From Candidatus Poribacteria bacterium (GTDB taxonomy: Bacteria; Poribacteria; WGA-4E; WGA-3G), in contig VXZK01000213.1 of NCBI GenBank assembly GCA_009845545.1, positions 1-36,218 of the forward strand: a stretch of 36,218 bases of DNA, given 5' to 3'. Of this stretch, positions 12,742 to 32,360 are shown piece after piece. The first letter of the stretch is position 1; each line of letters starts with the position of its first letter. Under the pieces are notes generated by a model that was not told where the DNA came from, did not search any database, and saw nothing but the letters and a program-made list of their open reading frames with translations. The position numbers and the translations under genes were made by a program.

Positions 12742-13122
12742 TTATGCGAGAGGTATCATAAAAATTCGCTCACGCTGTGCATTCATCTCCTCGAAATGCT
12801 TGAGTTGCCTTAGTGCTTCCTCGTAACCCCGTTTAAGGATATCTCGGTTTTTCCCCATAAGTTCGAGTTTCTCTGGCAAGGATTCAAGCATCCGCGCGAT
12901 AGCCCTTTGCTCTTCTTCTTCGGAGAAGGTTTCAGGCGGTTCCGGCTCCGGTGATGCTTCAACGGGAGGTGCCACCGGTGGCTCATGTGGTCCTTCGTGC
13001 TTATCCAAGGCCTCCTGAAGTTTCGCTGTATTCTCACTTGAACTCTGAATCTCGTTGAAGTAGCCGAAAAGGAATAGACTGGCGACAAGACACGAAACGG
13101 TGGCGATCCAATATTTCTTCAT
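12742..13122 (-). CDS. Membrane-anchored small protein, probably frameshifted near its C-terminus
   Basis: The open frame gives 126 residues: an uncleaved signal-anchor (residues 4-22), a low-complexity Pro/Glu linker containing KHEGPHEPP, then a charged helical region predicted to form a coiled coil. The same HEGPHEP phrase occurs in the neighbouring gene at 13142-13807, so the two are probably related. The open frame ends at 12742, but a single-base shift near the TTTTT run at about 12770 opens a coherent helical continuation (SRIKERIAEAKAELDRRES and onward to HANK) that stops at 12647. The intact protein was therefore probably about 158 residues. Function is unknown; the location would be the inner membrane with a periplasmic domain. 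Confidence 0.65.
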   Translation of the reverse strand: MKKYWIATVSCLVASLFLFGYFNEIQSSSENTAKLQEALDKHEGPHEPPVAPPVEASPEPEPPETFSEEEEQRAIARMLESLPEKLELMGKNRDILKRGYEEALRQLKHFEEMNAQRERIFMIPLA

Positions 13123-13141
13123 GGTTTTTCTTATTTTCGGG

Positions 13142-13807
13142 TTAGTCGGTTAACTCCGGTAGAGGATAAATAATCATCTCACCCGGACCGTGCGGACGGT
13201 TAAAATTCCGTTTGATCAAGCGGCGGCTAAGGACATCAGCAGCTCTACTTGATGTTATCTGATAAACGTTGTATTCCCAGGCGACCGCATCAAGTGCTTC
13301 GAGACGCGATTTTGCTTCATCGCTGCCAACTTCGGCTTCACCGAATGCTCGCATACGTTTCCACAATTCAGCGCTGAGTTGTTCCTGCTTTTCGATGTAT
13401 TCGAGATGCATTGCTCTCAATTCTTCGTCGCGCATCGCCTTTAGCACTGCATACTTCGGCACATCGTCACTGGCTGCGACCTGCTCTCCTATAGATAGGG
13501 GCAGACCGCCAGCACCCGTAGTGGAGATTTCCGATGAGCCAGGTTCAACTGGACTCTGACCCTGTGCGGTTGAGGGCGGCTCCACCGGTTCATGCGGTCC
13601 TTCGTGCCAAGTGCCATCGGCGTGGAAATGTCCACCTTTCGAGGTATCACCAACAGGGGCTTGAGGTGTCGGTTTCTCTATGGGTTCAACCGCTTTGTAA
13701 ATCTTCACAGGTTCGGGGGGCGGTTGTGTCGCGAGCAGGTAAAGCCCTATACCCACAATCGCCACCAGAAACACTGATAGCGGTATCCAGTATTTGCGTA
13801 AGAACAT
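13142..13807 (-). CDS. Membrane-anchored protein with His-rich GHFHADGTWHEGPHE motif
   Basis: A 221-residue protein when started at the ATG at 13807-13805, which has AGGAG eight bases upstream and matches the start of its paralog at 15147. The longer frame to 13897 adds an unconserved hydrophobic leader. Residues 6-27 are a single transmembrane anchor, followed by a Pro-rich linker and the motif GHFHADGTWHEGPHE (four His in 15 residues), then a helical charged C-terminal domain of about 110 residues. The N-terminal 60 residues are nearly identical in pattern to the protein at 14530-15147. The His cluster could bind a metal, which is inference. No known family was recognised. Confidence 0.78.
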   Translation of the reverse strand: MFLRKYWIPLSVFLVAIVGIGLYLLATQPPPEPVKIYKAVEPIEKPTPQAPVGDTSKGGHFHADGTWHEGPHEPVEPPSTAQGQSPVEPGSSEISTTGAGGLPLSIGEQVAASDDVPKYAVLKAMRDEELRAMHLEYIEKQEQLSAELWKRMRAFGEAEVGSDEAKSRLEALDAVAWEYNVYQITSSRAADVLSRRLIKRNFNRPHGPGEMIIYPLPELTD

Positions 13808-14028
13808 TTGGGTTCTCCTATAGGTTTTAACATAGATGACTACTAACAATATCAATATGATAACAAAAACAAAGAAACGTGTCAAGAAAAAACACATAGA
13901 ACTTTGGAATCACGCATCTGTATGTGGGCAAACGATATAAGGGATGAGTGAAATGCGCAAAATCTACCAACACTTCTTGGCTGGCGGTCCTTCATTGGAT
14001 TCAGAGATCGGCGTTTCACCCAAAGGAG

Positions 14029-14479
14029 TTAGAAACTGATCGGTAGCATTAGTGTGCGTTGCTGCCCTTGTGTGGAGAGTGTCACCTGCTTCGACTGGAT
14101 GCCTACTACTTGGGTGTTTGCGTCGAGATTTGAACCTAATGTCACGATATATGTTTTCTCTCCTGCGGTGGATTGTAGGATTGCCTGTGGCGGTGTGGTC
14201 GCGTCTGACGCAAGAACCGTGCCAAGTAAGCGATAGGGTTCACTCGGTCGGGGCGGTGTCTACCCTAACGGACGGAACAGGTTATTGTCGATGATGGTGC
14301 GGTAGTAGGAATCGGATTTCTGAAATTCTGTCAAAGCATTAGGTGTGCGGTGTGGGCGTTGGGGTCGGTATGCGACGGCCTGTTTTTCTGGCGCGCGGTT
14401 TTCTTTCAGGGTCGGTTCGGGTCAAACGAAAGGCAACGCGTCAGTCATCCAAAAGAAAACCGACGCGCCGGTTTTTCAT
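14029..14479 (-). pseudogene. GspC-like gene remnant, copy 1
   Basis: Conceptual translation recovers a small membrane protein related to the copy at 16128-16614. It starts MKNRR at 14479, shifts frame after about 12 codons, then reads in one frame with two internal stops (TGA at 14424-14422 and TAG at 14262-14260) through DSYYRTIIDNNLFRPLG, EPYRLLGTVLA, KTYIVTLGSNLDANTQVVG and IQSKQVTLSTQGQQRTLML to a TAA at 14031-14029. The second stop replaces a Trp codon (TGG) kept in copy 2. The pattern resembles the periplasmic domain of type II secretion GspC or PilP. The gene is clearly inactivated. Confidence 0.75.
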
Positions 14480-14529
14480 GTTACGGTGTCTTTGGACTTC
14501 ATCAATACCCGTTTCATGACAGGTGCTCC

Positions 14530-15147
14530 TTATGGATTTTGCGATTGAACAGGTCTTTCAAGTATGACAGACTTAAGTTTTTCACTGGCCGCTTTACGTT
14601 TTTCAACCAGATATTCCATTTTCATGAGGAGTTCCTGTCTTTCCACATCGCTGAGATTTTGGAGATACTCCGGGGTGCCTTCCTCTGGAAGGACATCCAG
14701 AACAGCCTCAATTGATGCTGTCCATTCAGCAGCTGCCTCATCGTGTTTCTCTCTCCACTCAGAAAATGCTTTGAAATACTCCTCCAAGCGTTTATGATAC
14801 AGAGCGTTGATATCTTCACCCTCGCTTGCCTCGGCGATAGGGGGCGTTTGGACAATTACCGACGGGCTGTCTTGCGGTTGCGGCGGACTCACCTCTGCTG
14901 TGGATTGCACTTCTGTCTCGTGCTGTTGGGCATGAAATGTGCCATCGGCGTGGAAGTGTCCCTCTTGCGAGGTCTCACCAACAGGGGCTTGCGTGGTTGT
15001 CGGTTGTTGGGTCGGTTTCTTAGGTTCAACTGTCTTGTAAATCTTCATGGGTTCGGGTGGCGGTTGTGTCGCGAGCATGTAAAGCCCGATGCCCACAATC
15101 GCCACCAGCAACACCGAGAGCGGTAGCCAGTTTTTTCGGATAAACAT
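14530..15147 (-). CDS. Membrane-anchored protein with His-rich GHFHADGTFH motif
   Basis: A 205-residue paralog of the protein at 13142-13807. It has the same start (MFIRKNWLPLS), a transmembrane anchor at about 9-27, the shared TQPPPEPMKIYKTVEP linker and the motif GHFHADGTFHAQQHE near residue 67. The C-terminal 100 residues are helical and charged but differ from the paralog. It should be an inner-membrane protein with its soluble part in the periplasm. It lies directly upstream of the GspC-like remnant, and the other paralog lies directly downstream of that remnant, which suggests a duplicated two-gene unit. Function is unknown. Confidence 0.78.
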   Translation of the reverse strand: MFIRKNWLPLSVLLVAIVGIGLYMLATQPPPEPMKIYKTVEPKKPTQQPTTTQAPVGETSQEGHFHADGTFHAQQHETEVQSTAEVSPPQPQDSPSVIVQTPPIAEASEGEDINALYHKRLEEYFKAFSEWREKHDEAAAEWTASIEAVLDVLPEEGTPEYLQNLSDVERQELLMKMEYLVEKRKAASEKLKSVILERPVQSQNP

Positions 15148-16636: not shown

Positions 16637-17197
16637 TTAATACCCGTCGTGACTTAAGAGAGGGCTACTACTACAGTAAAGGTTGGAATCACACTGACGA
16701 AACGATTGATTGCAGTAGTAACAGGTACGCACGCGGTGAGCGTCTACTAATGTTGAATCCCACGGAGAGTAGAGATTCTTACACCCAGAGCACCGGTGAT
16801 CATGTCCGGATGTTTGACACAGCAGCATTTGGTGTGCTCCCGTCGGCGGACAACTCGTGGTCGTGGTATGCGTATAAACATCTGAGGAGTTACATTCATA
16901 GTATGTATGGTTAGCACCACAAAGCAGAGGACGGTGGCCCTCCATACCTTCTGAATCGATCAACTGTTCTGCGGATGCTATATCGTCTGCCCGACGGCGG
17001 AGACGCCGCATAATCGCGAGACGGGTTTCTGAATAGATATCCGCTTCTTCCTCAGCATTTTGGATTTCATAATAGATGATAGTCTTCAGGAGCCGCTCAT
17101 ATCTCTTTATCAGAGTTTCCAGCGCGTTATCATCTCCATTATGAATACGCGTCAGCAATATTTCATCTGAAAGATTCGTAAAGTTTTCTGCTGCCAT
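16637..17197 (-). CDS. Sigma-70 region-2-like protein with Cys/His-rich C-terminal domain
   Basis: A 186-residue protein in two parts. Residues 8-80 look like region 2 of an ECF sigma factor (LSDEILLTRIHNGDDNALETLIKRYERLL, then EEEADIYSETRLAIMRRLRR). Region 4 is missing. Residues 83-186 contain ten Cys (93, 102, 116, 127, 136, 139, 159, 162, 169, 175) and eight His, including CSGC at 136-139 and CYYC at 159-162, spaced like a zinc ribbon. The frame is open and codon use is coherent across both parts. It is the first gene of the minus-strand locus that holds the GspC-like and GHFHADGT genes, and it is divergent from the FGE-sialidase gene. A regulator that senses zinc or redox state is inference. 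Confidence 0.6.
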   Translation of the reverse strand: MAAENFTNLSDEILLTRIHNGDDNALETLIKRYERLLKTIIYYEIQNAEEEADIYSETRLAIMRRLRRRADDIASAEQLIDSEGMEGHRPLLCGANHTYYECNSSDVYTHTTTTSCPPTGAHQMLLCQTSGHDHRCSGCKNLYSPWDSTLVDAHRVRTCYYCNQSFRQCDSNLYCSSSPLLSHDGY

Positions 17198-24947: not shown

Positions 24948-27671
24948 ATGGGTTATGATTTCACGACTGTCGCACGGTTGCCATCGCCAGGCGATAACGT
25001 CGCTATTACGACACAAACATTGGAAGGTGGCACGCGCATTCACTACAATGGACAACAGATTCAGTTATCGCATACCATTTTGGAAGGGCATCGCTTTGCC
25101 ATTGAGTCGATTTCAGAGACATCGCCGTTGTTGTCGTGGGGTTTACCCTTCGGTTTCGCTATACGCTCCATTGACCCCGGTGATTATGTCTGTAATCAGA
25201 AGATGATTGATTCGTTGTCTATTAGAAACTTACCCTTCGCATTGCCGGAAACACCGAACTTCAGCGACAAGATGGCACCCTACCAATTAGACGAGGCTGA
25301 ATTCCGTCCGGGTACACAGATGCCACGTTATACACATGCGCGGCACTTCCTGGGTTATCAGCGTCCTGGCAACCGTGGCGTTGGCACGCGAAACTATATC
25401 GTCGTTATGGGCACAACTTCCCGCACCTCCGGTTTCGCGAGAAGACTTGCCGAGATGTGTTCGGTAGGAGGGGTTTGGAACCCCGATATATTTCCCAATA
25501 TAGACGGTGTTGTTGCTGTGACACATACAGAGGGTGGCGAAGACAGGACTCCGAATAACGTTGATATGCTGCTCCGAACGCTCGCCGGTTTTACTGTCCA
25601 TCCGAATATCGGTGCGATGTTGCTTGTGGATTATGGTACTGAAGCGGTTACGAACGAAATGCTCAAGGCGTATATGTTACGCGAGGGTTACGCTTTGGAT
25701 GATGTCGTTCACCGTTTCTATCGGCTACAAGGGAGTTTTGACACGGATTTAGTGAGCGGTAGGGAGATTATCAACGGGTGGTTGGATACTGTGAACAGCG
25801 TACCGCGCGCTGAACAACCTCTGGAAAATCTGAAGATTGCTCTGCAGTGTGGGGGTTCCGATGCGTTCTCTGGTGTATCTGGTAATCCGCTTGCCGCTTA
25901 CGTTGCGAAAGAGGTCATTCGTTATGGCGGATGTGCCAACCTCGCGGAGACCGATGAACTGATCGGATCGGAGGCATACATACTTCAAAACGTCCGCGAT
26001 CTGGCTACCGCCCGCACGTTCCTCAATACCATTGAACGGTTCAAAGAACGCGTTTCATGGCATGGACACTCCGCAGAAGGCAATCCTTCTGGCGGCAATA
26101 ACTTCCGTGGACTCTATAACATCGCCATTAAATCAATCGGTGCAGCGATGAAGCGGCATCCTGATGTCTGTCTCGATTATGTCATCAATTATAGCGAGTT
26201 GATGGAGGAATCGGGCTACTACTTCATGGACAGTCCCGGCAACGATTTAGAAAGCATCGCAGGACAGGTGGCATCCGGCTCCAACATGATTTTCTTTGTA
26301 ACAGGCAACGGTTCGATTACGAATTTCCCATTCGTGCCGACGATTAAGATCGTCACGACGACGGGGCGTTATGAGATGCTTTCCAAGGATATGGACGTGA
26401 ACGCCGGCGCATATCTCGACGGGACACCGATGGAAGAACTCGGCGAATCCATGCTGGATCTGACAGTAGATGTCGCATCGGGTGAACGTTCAGTCGGTGA
26501 GAAAGCCGGGCATTCTCAAGTCTCGCTATGGCGCGATTGGAAGCAGACGGGTCCTGTGAATTTGGACCTGTTGTTAACGGAATCTGAATTGAAGTCCGGT
26601 GAACCGATCCCAATTGGTGCTGTTACGGAAACCCAGCGGCGTGTGCCTACTACTCTGCGTCCAACGGCACAGCGGCGTGTGCCTACTACTCTGCAATTCC
26701 GTGCGCTCCAAACAGAGGCGGGTTACCGCACGGATCAGGTTGGACTCATCTTGCCTACGAGTCTCTGCTCTGGACAGATTGCACAGATGATCGCGCACCA
26801 CTGCAATGAACGCGGGATCGGCGCGAAGGAGGGTATATCCCGTTTTGTTGCGCTTCCGCATACGGAGGGGTGTGGTGTCTCCGGCGGACGTTCTGAGGAG
26901 ATTTATACCCGCACGATGATTGGGCACCTTACGCATCCGAAGGTTGCGCTCGGTCTACTCCTTGAACACGGTTGTGAGAAGACCCACAACGACCACGTCC
27001 GACATGAAATCCAGAAGTTGGGCATATCGCCGGAACGTTACGGTTGGGCGAGCGTGCAGTTAGATGGCGGGATTGATGCTGTTATTGAGAAGGTGCAAGA
27101 CTGGTTTTCGGAAACGCTTGCGGATAAGCCGCCTGTTCCGGTTGTCGATGCCGGATTAGAACACCTCTGTGTAGCCGTGACATCAACAGGTGAGGCAACT
27201 GAAGAAGTCTCTCAGTCCTTAACGCAATTGACGCACGGAATCGTTGCTGTGGGTGGAACGGTTGTCGTCCCCGCGAATGCGGCGTTTGTGTCTCACGGCA
27301 CACGGGGTGTGCCTACTACTTTGGCGTATGGACAGCGGGTCGAGAAAGCGGGTTTTCACGTTATGGAGACACCGACGGATCAACCGACGGAGACGTTGAC
27401 AGGTTTGGGTGCGACAGGTGTGGATTTGGCACTTGTGCATGTTGTCGGTGCGCCGTTGCAATCGCATGTGATGGTGCCGTTAATTCAGGTTTCTACGGAT
27501 GCTACAACACAAGCGAACTACGGTGCGGATTTGGATTTGGAGTCTGCTAATGTTGACGATTTGTTGGCATTGATTGTAGAGGTGGCTTCGCGGCGGTATA
27601 CGCCGAAACTACACGGCAAAGGGAATACGGATTTCCAGTTGACGCGCGGGTTATTGGGGATTTCGATGTAA
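24948..27671 (+). CDS. UxaA/GarD-family altronate or galactarate dehydratase-like protein, long form
   Basis: A 907-residue protein starting at the ATG at 24948, with AAGGAG upstream; the frame extends 21 codons further but without a ribosome site. An N-terminal SAF-like domain (to about 95) is followed by a UxaA core (GNRGVGTRNYIVVMGTTSRTSG, about 140-260) and the C-terminal dehydratase half (LQCGGSDAFSGVSGNP, SNMIFFVTGNG, NAGAYLDGTPMEELGE). From about 590 a second UxaA-like segment repeats the core pattern (GLILPTSLCSGQIAQM, LPHTEGCGVSGG, LLLEHGCEK). Normal UxaA is about 500 residues. Enzymes of this family dehydrate hexarates or hexonates with Fe2+ in the cytoplasm. Three in-frame palindromic repeats lie at the linker (about 563-583) and near residue 787. 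Confidence 0.87.
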   Translation: MGYDFTTVARLPSPGDNVAITTQTLEGGTRIHYNGQQIQLSHTILEGHRFAIESISETSPLLSWGLPFGFAIRSIDPGDYVCNQKMIDSLSIRNLPFALPETPNFSDKMAPYQLDEAEFRPGTQMPRYTHARHFLGYQRPGNRGVGTRNYIVVMGTTSRTSGFARRLAEMCSVGGVWNPDIFPNIDGVVAVTHTEGGEDRTPNNVDMLLRTLAGFTVHPNIGAMLLVDYGTEAVTNEMLKAYMLREGYALDDVVHRFYRLQGSFDTDLVSGREIINGWLDTVNSVPRAEQPLENLKIALQCGGSDAFSGVSGNPLAAYVAKEVIRYGGCANLAETDELIGSEAYILQNVRDLATARTFLNTIERFKERVSWHGHSAEGNPSGGNNFRGLYNIAIKSIGAAMKRHPDVCLDYVINYSELMEESGYYFMDSPGNDLESIAGQVASGSNMIFFVTGNGSITNFPFVPTIKIVTTTGRYEMLSKDMDVNAGAYLDGTPMEELGESMLDLTVDVASGERSVGEKAGHSQVSLWRDWKQTGPVNLDLLLTESELKSGEPIPIGAVTETQRRVPTTLRPTAQRRVPTTLQFRALQTEAGYRTDQVGLILPTSLCSGQIAQMIAHHCNERGIGAKEGISRFVALPHTEGCGVSGGRSEEIYTRTMIGHLTHPKVALGLLLEHGCEKTHNDHVRHEIQKLGISPERYGWASVQLDGGIDAVIEKVQDWFSETLADKPPVPVVDAGLEHLCVAVTSTGEATEEVSQSLTQLTHGIVAVGGTVVVPANAAFVSHGTRGVPTTLAYGQRVEKAGFHVMETPTDQPTETLTGLGATGVDLALVHVVGAPLQSHVMVPLIQVSTDATTQANYGADLDLESANVDDLLALIVEVASRRYTPKLHGKGNTDFQLTRGLLGISM
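26634..26694 (-). repeat. Two in-frame GTAG-type palindromic repeats inside the UxaA-like gene
   Basis: A perfect 25-base direct repeat occurs at 26634-26658 and 26670-26694, with a period of 36 bases (12 codons), encoding QRRVPTTL twice. The second copy forms the palindrome GGCACA-GCGGCG-TGTGCC at 26666-26683. Read on the minus strand each unit begins GTAG before the palindrome, as in REP elements. Confidence 0.8.
27297..27320 (-). repeat. Third GTAG-type palindromic repeat in the UxaA-like gene
   Basis: The perfect inverted repeat GGCACAC-GGG-GTGTGCC at 27297-27313 is followed by TACTACT, as in the copies at 26634-26694. It is in the same reading frame and encodes TRGVPTTL. Confidence 0.75.
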
Positions 27672-27680
27672 AGGTATTCT

Positions 27681-28013
27681 ATGCAGAGAAATTACCCAAT
27701 TGTTATTCACAAAGACCGAGATACTGACTATTGTGTAATTGTGCCAGATCTACCCGGGTGCATAACTGCTGGAGATACGCTTGATGATGCACAAAATCAA
27801 GCATTAGAGGCTATCCAATGTCATATTGAAGGTATGTTGCTTGATGGTGAGCCTGTTCCTGAAGCGAAAAGTAACGTTCAAATTATGGACAACGACATCC
27901 ATAATTTGACGGAACAACGGCTCACAGGGCTGAAAACCAAAGATGCAACCCGATATATGCATCGGTTAGGAATTGGCATCATATTTGCTACACTTCTCAC
28001 ATCAACGTCCTAA
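27681..28013 (+). CDS. HicB-like domain protein (orphan)
   Basis: A 110-residue protein. Residues 4-62 match the HicB antitoxin fold (YPIVIHKDRDTDYCVIVPDLPGCITAGDTLDDAQNQALEAIQCHIEGML). HicB normally neutralises the HicA mRNA interferase and carries a C-terminal DNA-binding domain, but here the C-terminal 45 residues show no HTH or RHH pattern and end in a hydrophobic stretch. No hicA lies nearby. It starts nine bases after the UxaA-like stop codon with AAGG upstream, so it is probably at the end of that operon. Confidence 0.72.
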   Translation: MQRNYPIVIHKDRDTDYCVIVPDLPGCITAGDTLDDAQNQALEAIQCHIEGMLLDGEPVPEAKSNVQIMDNDIHNLTEQRLTGLKTKDATRYMHRLGIGIIFATLLTSTS

Positions 28014-29140: not shown

Positions 29141-30166
29141 ATGTATCGTGTCGGTATTATCGGGTTAGGCAGTATTGCCGCCCGTTACTCAACACCTGAT
29201 GACGCTTATCCGTATTGCCATGCAGGCGGCATCCGTTTTTGCGAGACAACCGAATTGGTGGCAGTCGCGGATATGTCAGCAGAACGGCAAGTAGAATTTC
29301 AACAGACATGGGGACCTGGCTTCCCAGATAACTCCATCAACTATTATGAAACAGATGTCCAGATGCTTGAAAGTGAAGATTTAGACATCGTCGCTGTCTG
29401 TGTCCGTGGACCGCACCATTTTCAAGTGATGCAGAACGTCTTAAGAGCAGATATTAAAGCCATCTTTCTCGAAAAACCCGCCGGATGTTCCCTTGAAGAA
29501 GTTGACACAATGACAGCAGGTGCCGACGCTAAAGGGATTCCTATCGTTGTGGACTATACACGACACTGGGGCCCACATCTCATCCGCCTTCAATTGCTTA
29601 TCGAAGACGGACTTATCGGCGAGGTGCAAACCGTTATCGGCTATTGCGGTGGCGGCGTGCTCTCCTTCGCTATCCATACAACGGATATGATCTGCCAATT
29701 CGCAGGCTACGACCCCGTAGCCGTGACGGGATTCGTCTCTGGTGGTGGGGATGTGCCAGAACCTTACGAACCTGAGCCAGCGATTATCGGTTCAACCATC
29801 CAATTTGAAAGCGGTGTCATCGGCTTTCACGTCGGCAACCACGGAACGCGCGGTGGGTTCTCTGTCGATATTCTCGGCAGCGAAGGCAGCGTTCAGACCG
29901 GATTTTATAGCGGCGCGACTGTCCACAGAGCCGGCAAATTGGTCGATAACGATACGCTTGATCTCCCTGCAAACGCCAGCCCGTTTAAGGTCGCGTATAA
30001 ACAGATTACGGACTCTCTTGATGGCGGTGCGCTGCCGCATTGTGCCCGCGACGATTATACGGCTGTCAACGAAATCGGATTTGCCACGATTGAAAGCAGC
30101 ATCACCGGACAGACAATACAACTTCCGTGCCAAAACAGGAAACGGCTGATCTTCGCGAATGGTTAA
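29141..30166 (+). CDS. Gfo/Idh/MocA family oxidoreductase
   Basis: A 341-residue NAD(P)-dependent sugar or inositol dehydrogenase-like enzyme. The Rossmann motif is GIIGLGSIAA (G8-x-G10) near the N-terminus and the EKPAG motif with the catalytic Lys follows at about residues 111-115. The C-terminal GFO_IDH_MocA domain includes HTTDMICQFAGYDP. It should be cytoplasmic; the substrate is unknown. It has its own predicted promoter and strong ribosome site (AAAGGAG). The GrdB-like selenoprotein gene starts 12 bases after its stop, so the two are co-transcribed. Confidence 0.93.
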   Translation: MYRVGIIGLGSIAARYSTPDDAYPYCHAGGIRFCETTELVAVADMSAERQVEFQQTWGPGFPDNSINYYETDVQMLESEDLDIVAVCVRGPHHFQVMQNVLRADIKAIFLEKPAGCSLEEVDTMTAGADAKGIPIVVDYTRHWGPHLIRLQLLIEDGLIGEVQTVIGYCGGGVLSFAIHTTDMICQFAGYDPVAVTGFVSGGGDVPEPYEPEPAIIGSTIQFESGVIGFHVGNHGTRGGFSVDILGSEGSVQTGFYSGATVHRAGKLVDNDTLDLPANASPFKVAYKQITDSLDGGALPHCARDDYTAVNEIGFATIESSITGQTIQLPCQNRKRLIFANG

Positions 30167-30178
30167 TACGAGGCGTGT

Positions 30179-30943
30179 ATGGCATCTGTCTGGAAACTTG
30201 ATCGTCTATCTCGCTTCTTTATGAAATTTTACGGCGGTAAGCACTATGAAGCATCTCCGCACACACCCTTGCGCTCGCCATTAAATGAATGCAGAGTTGC
30301 TCTTATTACAACCGCTGGGTTCTTTCTCAATGGGCAGCCCCCCTTTGAGACGGGGGATTGCTCGTACCGCGAGATTCCAAATTCCATTCAAACACAAGCA
30401 CTCATAAACGGACATAAAAGTGCAGCTTACAATGAACGTGGCATCGAAACGGATCCGAACCTCGCGTTTCCACTTGATAGATTCAAGGAACTGAAAACCG
30501 AAAGCAAAATCGGATCCCTAAACCATAGACACTTCAGTTTCATGGGATCCATCACAAAACCGGACATGCTCATCACACAATCCGCACCTGAAGTTGGACG
30601 CATACTTAAAGCGGACAGCGTAGAGGTTGTTTTCTTAACCCCTGTCTGACCGATGTGCAATCAGTCTGTAGGATTGATACAACGTGCTGTTGAAGCCGCA
30701 GGAATCTCTACGGTTTCAATCACACTTATAGAAGACACTACGAAAAAGGTGAAACCGCCGCGCGCCTTATCGGTACCGTACGGTTTCGGACATCCGCTCG
30801 GCGAACCGAACAACCCAGAGTTACAACACGCAATCATCGCTGAAGCACTCGAACTTTTGGAAGACAAGACACCACCTCCTCTCCTCAAAAAGAGTTCGAT
30901 AAACGCGCAAATTCCGATCACTGACAGCTCTAACAAGTTGTGA
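30179..30943 (+). CDS. GrdB/PrdB-family reductase selenoprotein (in-frame UGA as selenocysteine)
   Basis: One 254-residue product if the TGA at 30647-30649 is read as selenocysteine (residue 157). Without readthrough it breaks into 156 residues plus an orphan 96-residue frame. The two halves are in the same phase and one continuous family pattern runs through the TGA: GSLNHRHFSFMGSI, SAPEVGRILKADSVEVVFLTPV-U-PMCNQSVGLIQRAVEAAGI, then PPRALSVPYGFGHPLGEPNNPELQ. This matches the short selenoprotein B family related to glycine/sarcosine/betaine and D-proline reductase B subunits, whose members carry Sec or Cys at this place; C160 after it gives a U-x2-C redox motif. GAGG precedes the start. Role: a thiol/selenol reductase, substrate unknown. 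A recent TGA mutation is the alternative. Confidence 0.82.
30651..30684 (+). promoter_or_regulatory. Candidate bacterial SECIS stem-loop
   Basis: Immediately after the UGA, CAATC (30658-30662) pairs perfectly with GATTG (30672-30676) around a nine-base loop whose second base is G. The stem extends outward by TGT/ACA and CG/CG pairs with a small internal loop and one A-A mismatch. Position and shape fit bacterial SECIS elements that recruit SelB; it was folded by eye only. Confidence 0.5.
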
Positions 30944-30987: not shown

Positions 30988-31227
30988 ATGGAATACAAAA
31001 TACCGCTCGTCCTGACTCCCCAAACTGAGGGTGGATATACCGTGACTTCTCCCTTACTACCGGAGTTGGTTACCGAGGGGGATTCGGTAGTTGAGGCATT
31101 AGAAAACGTCAAAGATGCCTTTGCTGCTGTCCTCGAATTATATCAGGAATCAGGACGTTCATTGCCGGAGAATACGCAAATCCCTGACGCGAAGGGTCCG
31201 GTGTGGTTAGAAACAATTAGGAATTAA
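30988..31227 (+). CDS. HicB-like domain protein (orphan, small)
   Basis: A 79-residue protein starting at the ATG at 30988 with GGAGG seven bases upstream; the frame extends upstream without a ribosome site. The pattern YKIPLVLTPQTEGGYTVTSPLLPELVTEGDSVVEALENVKDAFAAVLELY is the HicB/UPF0150 fold. A HicA toxin gene is absent. It follows the selenoprotein gene by 44 bases. Isolated HicB-like proteins of this size are common and need not be toxin-antitoxin parts. Confidence 0.8.
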   Translation: MEYKIPLVLTPQTEGGYTVTSPLLPELVTEGDSVVEALENVKDAFAAVLELYQESGRSLPENTQIPDAKGPVWLETIRN

Positions 31228-31298: not shown

Positions 31299-32360
31299 AT
31301 GGACAGAATCAGAGTCGGTATTATCGGATGCGGCGGCATCTTTAGAGGTCTTCATGCACCGTATTACCAAGAACCGACGCGACGCGCAGACATCGTCGCT
31401 ATTGCTGACATCAACGAAACATCTGCAAATGAACAGGCAGATCGGTTCGGCGCAGACGCATACACAGATTACCGCACACTCCTTGACAGACAGGATATAG
31501 ACGCTGTTGATGTGTGTGTGCATCCACGTCCGCACCTCGAAATCACACGAGCCGCTGCCGCTGCCGGTAAACATATTTTGATGGAAAAACCGATGTGTTG
31601 CAATGTTGCGGAAGGTGACGAGATGGTCGCTGCCGCTGAAGATGCAGGTGTCCTCTTGATGGTGGCGTATATGATGCGCTTCGATCCCGGACATAAGAAA
31701 CTGAAATCGCTCTTAGACGACAGCACCCTCGGCACACTACAGATGGCGTATTCCAATCAGGTCGGTTATTTCTCACCCGAACGGCACCCGTGGCTTTTTG
31801 TGAAAGCAGAATCTGGCGGTATGTTGGTAGAGCAGGCAATTCACCATTTGGATATCTGGTTGTGGCTCTACGGTCCCGCTTCCACTGTCTACGGATTCAC
31901 GAGCCATGTTCCGCTGGGTGGCACCTACCCACCCGCTGACGAAGCCGTTGAAAACAACGCCGTACTGACTGTGCATTTCAAAAACGGTGGCATCGGTATG
32001 ATGATGAAAAGCTGGGCAGCTCAAGTCGGCAATACTGGTAACGGGCTCGTCACCAGTAAAGGCTCCGCAACATTGATTCGGCACGGACTCCGTTGGAAAA
32101 CCCATGACATGACAGAAGCAGAAGAATTCACTGCCCCTGTACCAGATAACGACACCTATCGCAACGTACCCGACGCGCAACGTCAACAGCGCTATTGGGG
32201 TATGGCAGCAAAAGGTGCAAGCATCGACCATTGGCTCCAGTGCATCGCTGGTGAAGCGGAACCAACGACTCACGGACGCATCGGTAGAGATGGCATTGAG
32301 TTAGCAGAGGCGACGTACCGTTCTTCTCAAATCGGCGCACCGATTTCGTTACCGCTGTAG
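31299..32360 (+). CDS. Gfo/Idh/MocA family oxidoreductase
   Basis: A 353-residue enzyme. Rossmann motif GIIGCGGIFRG at residues 7-17, EKP motif in ILMEKPMCCN near 95-104, and the C-terminal substrate domain with EQAIHHLDIWLWLYGP at about 178-193, where the His of HHLD is the usual catalytic residue. It should be a cytoplasmic NAD(P)-dependent dehydrogenase of a sugar or cyclitol. AAAGGAG precedes the ATG. It is the second member of the family in 3 kb and only distantly similar to the one at 29141, so not a recent duplicate. Confidence 0.94.
   Translation: MDRIRVGIIGCGGIFRGLHAPYYQEPTRRADIVAIADINETSANEQADRFGADAYTDYRTLLDRQDIDAVDVCVHPRPHLEITRAAAAAGKHILMEKPMCCNVAEGDEMVAAAEDAGVLLMVAYMMRFDPGHKKLKSLLDDSTLGTLQMAYSNQVGYFSPERHPWLFVKAESGGMLVEQAIHHLDIWLWLYGPASTVYGFTSHVPLGGTYPPADEAVENNAVLTVHFKNGGIGMMMKSWAAQVGNTGNGLVTSKGSATLIRHGLRWKTHDMTEAEEFTAPVPDNDTYRNVPDAQRQQRYWGMAAKGASIDHWLQCIAGEAEPTTHGRIGRDGIELAEATYRSSQIGAPISLPL

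Follow-up and report, generated by a model that had tools for sequence, protein, structure and literature searches.

Since 2005, selenoproteins called 'proline reductase PrdB' and carrying a UxxC motif have been recognised in marine metagenomes, and the sections of the two accounts drawn on here give 42 selenocysteine (Sec)-containing sequences for the Sargasso Sea and 235 for the GOS data (PMC1088965, PMC2398784). PrdB also figures in a list of the bacterial selenoproteins with the widest distribution. The amino acid that the D-proline and glycine reductases act on is described as pyruvoyl- or carbonyl-bound (PMC10298544). Here we analyse a gene in a 36,218-nt stretch of DNA from a Candidatus Poribacteria bacterium (the window) whose product belongs to this known UxxC 'PrdB' kind (Table 1). 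Like it, the Sargasso Sea and GOS sequences are assigned to pfam07355 and have Sec in a UxxC, and they are abundant in marine bacteria; unlike the present analysis, the sections concerned contain no discussion of a missing pyruvoyl partner or of the sequence RHFSFMG (PMC1088965, PMC2398784). The marine sequences may nevertheless form the same RHFSFMG group. What may be new is a group that lacks the partner and bears a different signature, and our literature search found no paper on 'PrdB-like' selenoproteins. Judged on comparative sequence evidence, we put the probability that the gene encodes a Sec-containing, stand-alone member of the PrdB/GrdB superfamily at roughly 0.88, a figure that excludes the catalytic cycle proposed below.

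Table 1. Positions in the window of the selenoprotein gene, its principal elements and its dehydrogenase neighbours.
Feature	Position	Strand	Basis
Upstream Gfo/Idh/MocA oxidoreductase, ending 12 bp before the selenoprotein gene	29141..30166	+	Pfam PF01408, synteny
Full selenoprotein gene, 254 aa with probable Sec157; PrdB/GrdB superfamily, stand-alone type	30179..30943	+	Read-through translation, family profiles, homologue TGA column, alignment
RHFSFMG codons, residues 117-123	30527..30547	+	Invariant in 34 stand-alone Sec proteins; absent from partnered GrdB
TGA very probably decoded as selenocysteine (residue 157)	30647..30649	+	TGA in 71/71 homologous loci and 29 more Poribacteria loci
Codon of invariant Cys160, putative resolving residue of U-x2-C	30656..30658	+	34-sequence alignment
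Putative bacterial SECIS hairpin: 8-bp stem 30660-30667/30671-30678, triloop GUA 30668-30670	30660..30678	+	Comparative pairing, published model
Downstream Gfo/Idh/MocA oxidoreductase	31299..32360	+	Pfam; nearby in 33/35 Poribacteria loci

The original prediction described one frame with a lone in-phase TGA, and read-through translation bears this out: the single internal TGA is codon 157, in the context LTPV-[TGA]-PMCNQSVGLIQR, and the frame runs on for 254 residues to a terminal TGA at 30941-30943 that is immediately followed by TAA. Mechanical ORF calling returned two pieces, of 156 aa and 96 aa, the split that had been foreseen for automated annotation. The proposed start is supported by a Met common to the homologues and by a GAGG at 30170-30173, 5 nt 5' of the ATG. 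To find relatives, 84,980 genomes were searched with six patterns, one of which covered the Sec site; because this pattern took the residue there as Cys, the scan did not favour TGA. It led to 71 loci that span six phyla (Poribacteria, Acidobacteriota, Planctomycetota, Desulfobacterales, Actinomycetota and Chloroflexota). In tblastn comparisons with these loci the alignment crosses codon 157 and shows TGA in that column in 71/71 cases, at identities of 38-86%: 35 of the loci are from Poribacteria (57-86%), and the others come from Acidobacteriota, Planctomycetota, Desulfobacterales, Rubrobacteraceae and Caldilineaceae (38-55%). The same codon occupies the site in 29/29 further Poribacteria loci read in detail, so that the alignment to homologues proposed earlier as a check came out in favour of Sec. 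A survey of the phylum found the gene in 68/85 genomes, and each site-spanning match contains a TGA. Since homology runs across the codon and TGA is present in every one of the 71 loci, the interruption is not a chance event.

The genome (5.57 Mb, 401 contigs, 93.9% complete) also holds the Sec machinery that had been predicted. It encodes a tRNA-Sec (C278:15816-15905, anticodon TCA, 78.1 bits) with SelB just upstream (C278:13881-15776), SelA (600.6 bits) and SelD (contig C373, locus L091), and the matches for selA, selB, selC and selD all exceed their family cut-offs. The selD frame itself contains an in-frame UGA (KCAG[U]ASKLAPGELA), at what we take to be the usual Sec/Cys site of SelD, and on this evidence the selenophosphate synthetase is read as a selenoprotein too. 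Across the phylum a tRNA-Sec was detected in 73/85 genomes and, counted from two tables, in 62/68 of those with the gene; its absence from the matches in the remaining 6 gene-positive genomes may reflect incomplete genomes or strict filters. Previous work reported that SelA and SelB co-occur in most sponge-symbiont bins (PMC5649159). A genome-wide reassignment of UGA to another amino acid would likewise account for in-frame TGA codons that are read through both here and in selD, but we give it a negligible probability, given that the selenoprotein gene ends on TGA followed by TAA, that long ORFs in the window are normal under table 11, and that a dedicated tRNA-Sec carries the TCA anticodon.

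Just 3' of the UGA lies a putative SECIS hairpin. The bacterial SECIS model has a loop of 3-9 nt, a stem of 4-16 bp, a G in the first two loop positions and a distance of 16-37 nt from the UGA, and the hairpin agrees with it on loop size, stem length, loop G and UGA spacing (PMC13188914): counting the T of the TGA as 1, the stem occupies positions 14-21/25-32 around a GUN triloop, with 18 nt between UGA and loop. Among 27 divergent sequences, 96.8% of stem cells are paired and double-sided changes occur in 26 cells, against a shuffled mean of 8.2 that reached the observed value in 0/500 shuffles; sliding the partner by 1-3 columns lowers pairing to 17-51%. For 99 distinct Sec sequences pairing is 95.5%, compared with 87.5 +/- 0.6% in shuffles in which codons were swapped only between sequences sharing the amino acid in the same column (0/500 reached the observed value), and the hairpin signal is therefore not explained by the protein sequence. 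In 17 non-Sec homologues from Acidobacteriota stem pairing is 55.9% and the hairpin is intact in 0/17, a contrast that is suggestive only, the non-Sec set being a divergent group. The support for the hairpin is comparative, because folding of this single sequence gave ordinary stability (z = -0.44, not significant); an Rfam scan of the window returned nothing at gathering score.

Taken together, the TGA column of the homologues, the Sec machinery with its UGA-containing selD, and the hairpin with compensatory changes lead us to conclude that codon 157 is almost certainly decoded as Sec. A gene caller that splits the frame, and a 96-aa part with an ATG of its own, are what one would expect if the TGA were a real stop that marks a pseudogene, a sequencing error or two short proteins. 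We consider this very improbable, as the same TGA recurs in all of the 71 and 29 loci, in independent assemblies and six phyla, both halves are conserved, the machinery is present with selD itself interrupted by UGA, and the hairpin covaries. Sequencing error, pseudogene and UGA reassignment were accordingly rejected on TGA conservation, the Sec machinery, the covarying hairpin and the terminal TGA. The pairing of residue 157 as Sec with C160 in a U-x2-C motif, also part of the original prediction, is strongly supported, and U157, C160 and RHFSFMG are invariant in 34 aligned stand-alone sequences.

The family label that the original prediction gave the protein, a GrdB/PrdB reductase, holds in one respect: it shares a superfamily with PrdB and with the C-terminal part of GrdB. 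Its best family match is TIGR04483 (PrdB), nearly full length at E=8e-43, and it passes Pfam GRDB (PF07355) with 31.8 bits against a gathering score of 22. Beyond that the enzyme assignment is only partly supported: the protein falls far below the PrdB cut-off, no GrdE or PrdA was found, and it carries a motif absent from GrdB. Clostridial D-proline reductase PrdB resembles it in near full-length homology and in Sec within a UxxC, but the TIGR04483 score of 146.6 bits is about half the equivalog cut-off of 300 and the genome has no detected PrdA/PF09338. GrdB (PF07355, TIGR01917/01918) was compared through ten Desulfobacterota loci around PF09338 genes, where the UGA falls in the same aligned column; these proteins differ in being longer, in lying beside PF09338, in having mostly U-x2-C-x2-C where ours has U-x2-C only, and in a YYxTVGNG-type sequence at the place of RHFSFMG. 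In our tree, GrdB and the stand-alone group lie on either side of a long branch with full support.

The pyruvoyl partner is missing as far as we searched. PF09338 (PrdA/GrdE) was found neither in this genome nor in any of 38 other gene-carrying genomes (0/38), a negative that is meaningful because the same model matches 12/297 Desulfobacterota genomes. TIGR04480 (PrdA) likewise had no match in this genome, with a model that lacked a positive control. With the pyruvoyl subunit absent, neither the D-proline nor the glycine reductase reaction would be expected to run as known, and we see no grounds for calling the protein a reductase of D-proline, glycine, sarcosine or betaine. That it is nevertheless a true PrdB of D-proline reductase or a GrdB-like subunit whose pyruvoyl partner is encoded elsewhere would accord with the TIGR04483 match and with a Sec column common to GrdB; we regard this as improbable in view of the low TIGR04483 score, the failure to detect PF09338 and PrdA, and the YYxTVGNG-type sequence of PF09338-linked GrdB.

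Paralogues without Sec occur in Acidobacteriota. They belong to the same superfamily and were recovered with the same profile, but in the 17 homologues the Sec column is occupied by Cys (5), Ser (7) or Glu/Asp (5), and their hairpin is not intact. In the tree, which is midpoint-rooted, they group inside the stand-alone part, with some Sec-containing proteins of Acidobacteriota, Desulfobacterales and Rubrobacteraceae close by; this placement would agree with replacement of Sec more than once, on a midpoint-rooted tree in which some of these branches are long. Some members of this set (L154-L170) also carry Ser for the resolving Cys (e.g. GEVLSHQ). Relatives in which both residues are replaced suggest that the redox function was lost or that a new role was acquired.

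For the Sec-containing stand-alone protein, the role we consider most likely is that of a single-subunit selenol reductase. The hairpin would recruit SelB with Sec-tRNA(UCA), so placing Sec at codon 157; the Sec157 selenolate would then attack an electrophilic substrate, C160 would resolve the adduct to a selenenylsulfide, after which thioredoxin or another dithiol would reset the enzyme, the cycle running without the pyruvoyl subunit of the glycine and D-proline reductases. This cycle, which we deduce from superfamily chemistry and from the conservation of U-x2-C, has in our judgement about even odds. The U-x2-C motif could instead serve a thioredoxin-like, general disulfide or peroxide reductase, not a substrate-specific enzyme that cleaves C-N or C-X bonds. 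Such a role would fit the region around the motif, which locally and weakly resembles Thioredoxin_3 (E=0.038), and an MsrB-like gene that in L043, L062 and L071 (two Planctomycetota and one Desulfococcaceae) follows the selenoprotein gene at a distance of no more than two ORFs. We think it unlikely, although a good deal less so than a subunit role: the Thioredoxin_3 score is 14.5 bits against a cut-off of 24.8, no thioredoxin fold is among the listed structural matches to the model, and the strong conservation of RHFSFMG and of other residues distant from the motif points to a specific active site. The AlphaFold model (pLDDT 88.8, pTM 0.89) had no Foldseek match in the PDB at E<=0.001, and no relative turned up in the PDB when it was searched with the protein sequence or with a profile, so that the fold gave no hint of function.

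In the genomic neighbourhood, the Gfo/Idh/MocA dehydrogenase that had been predicted next door was indeed found immediately upstream. By a strict count this gene is present in 31/35 Poribacteria loci, mostly at a spacing of 7-14 bp, and it is a probable operon partner in this phylum. Outside Poribacteria the neighbours, read by eye, vary by lineage (xanthine/uracil permease, glucosidase, IspG, MsrB), and no family-wide partner emerged from them. Such lineage-specific neighbours suggest that, as a rule, the enzyme probably acts by itself and that it has been fitted into a dehydrogenase operon in Poribacteria. Its substrate there is possibly a metabolite of the adjacent Gfo/Idh/MocA enzymes, an idea we hold only tentatively.

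The window contains several other features. Two HicB-like antitoxin genes lie at 27681-28013 and 30988-31227, the second, just below the Pfam cut-off, directly following the selenoprotein gene. An altronate/galactarate dehydratase-like gene contains three in-frame 25-nt repeats (26634-26658, 26670-26694 and 27300-27324; core GTGTGCCTACTAC) which add R(R/G)VPTTL peptides, and the repeat core is also present in L026, L046, L056 and L106. On the reverse strand, three adjacent genes at 12742-15147 are alike in their N-terminal membrane anchors and in linkers rich in Pro (e.g. ...YLLATQPPPEP...) and are probably a tandem family, and an ORF at 16637-17197, in which an ECF sigma factor-like N-terminus runs into a Cys-/Ser-rich tail, is perhaps chimeric or frameshifted.

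Finally, our analysis corrects a gene that automatic annotation would otherwise split or label a pseudogene, and indicates that Sec use is conserved over most of Poribacteria. The absence of the partner together with the different signature implies that the name 'PrdB' probably misstates the function. We moderately favour the view that the proteins with RHFSFMG and U-x2-C make up a selenoenzyme family in their own right, which has its own substrate, carries out a different reduction independent of pyruvoyl, is widespread in Poribacteria, Acidobacteriota and others, and has so far gone under the name 'proline reductase PrdB'. As these genomes yielded no pyruvoyl subunit, this would be a common selenoprotein family without a known reaction, and the Gfo/Idh/MocA operon of Poribacteria offers an entry point to its substrate.
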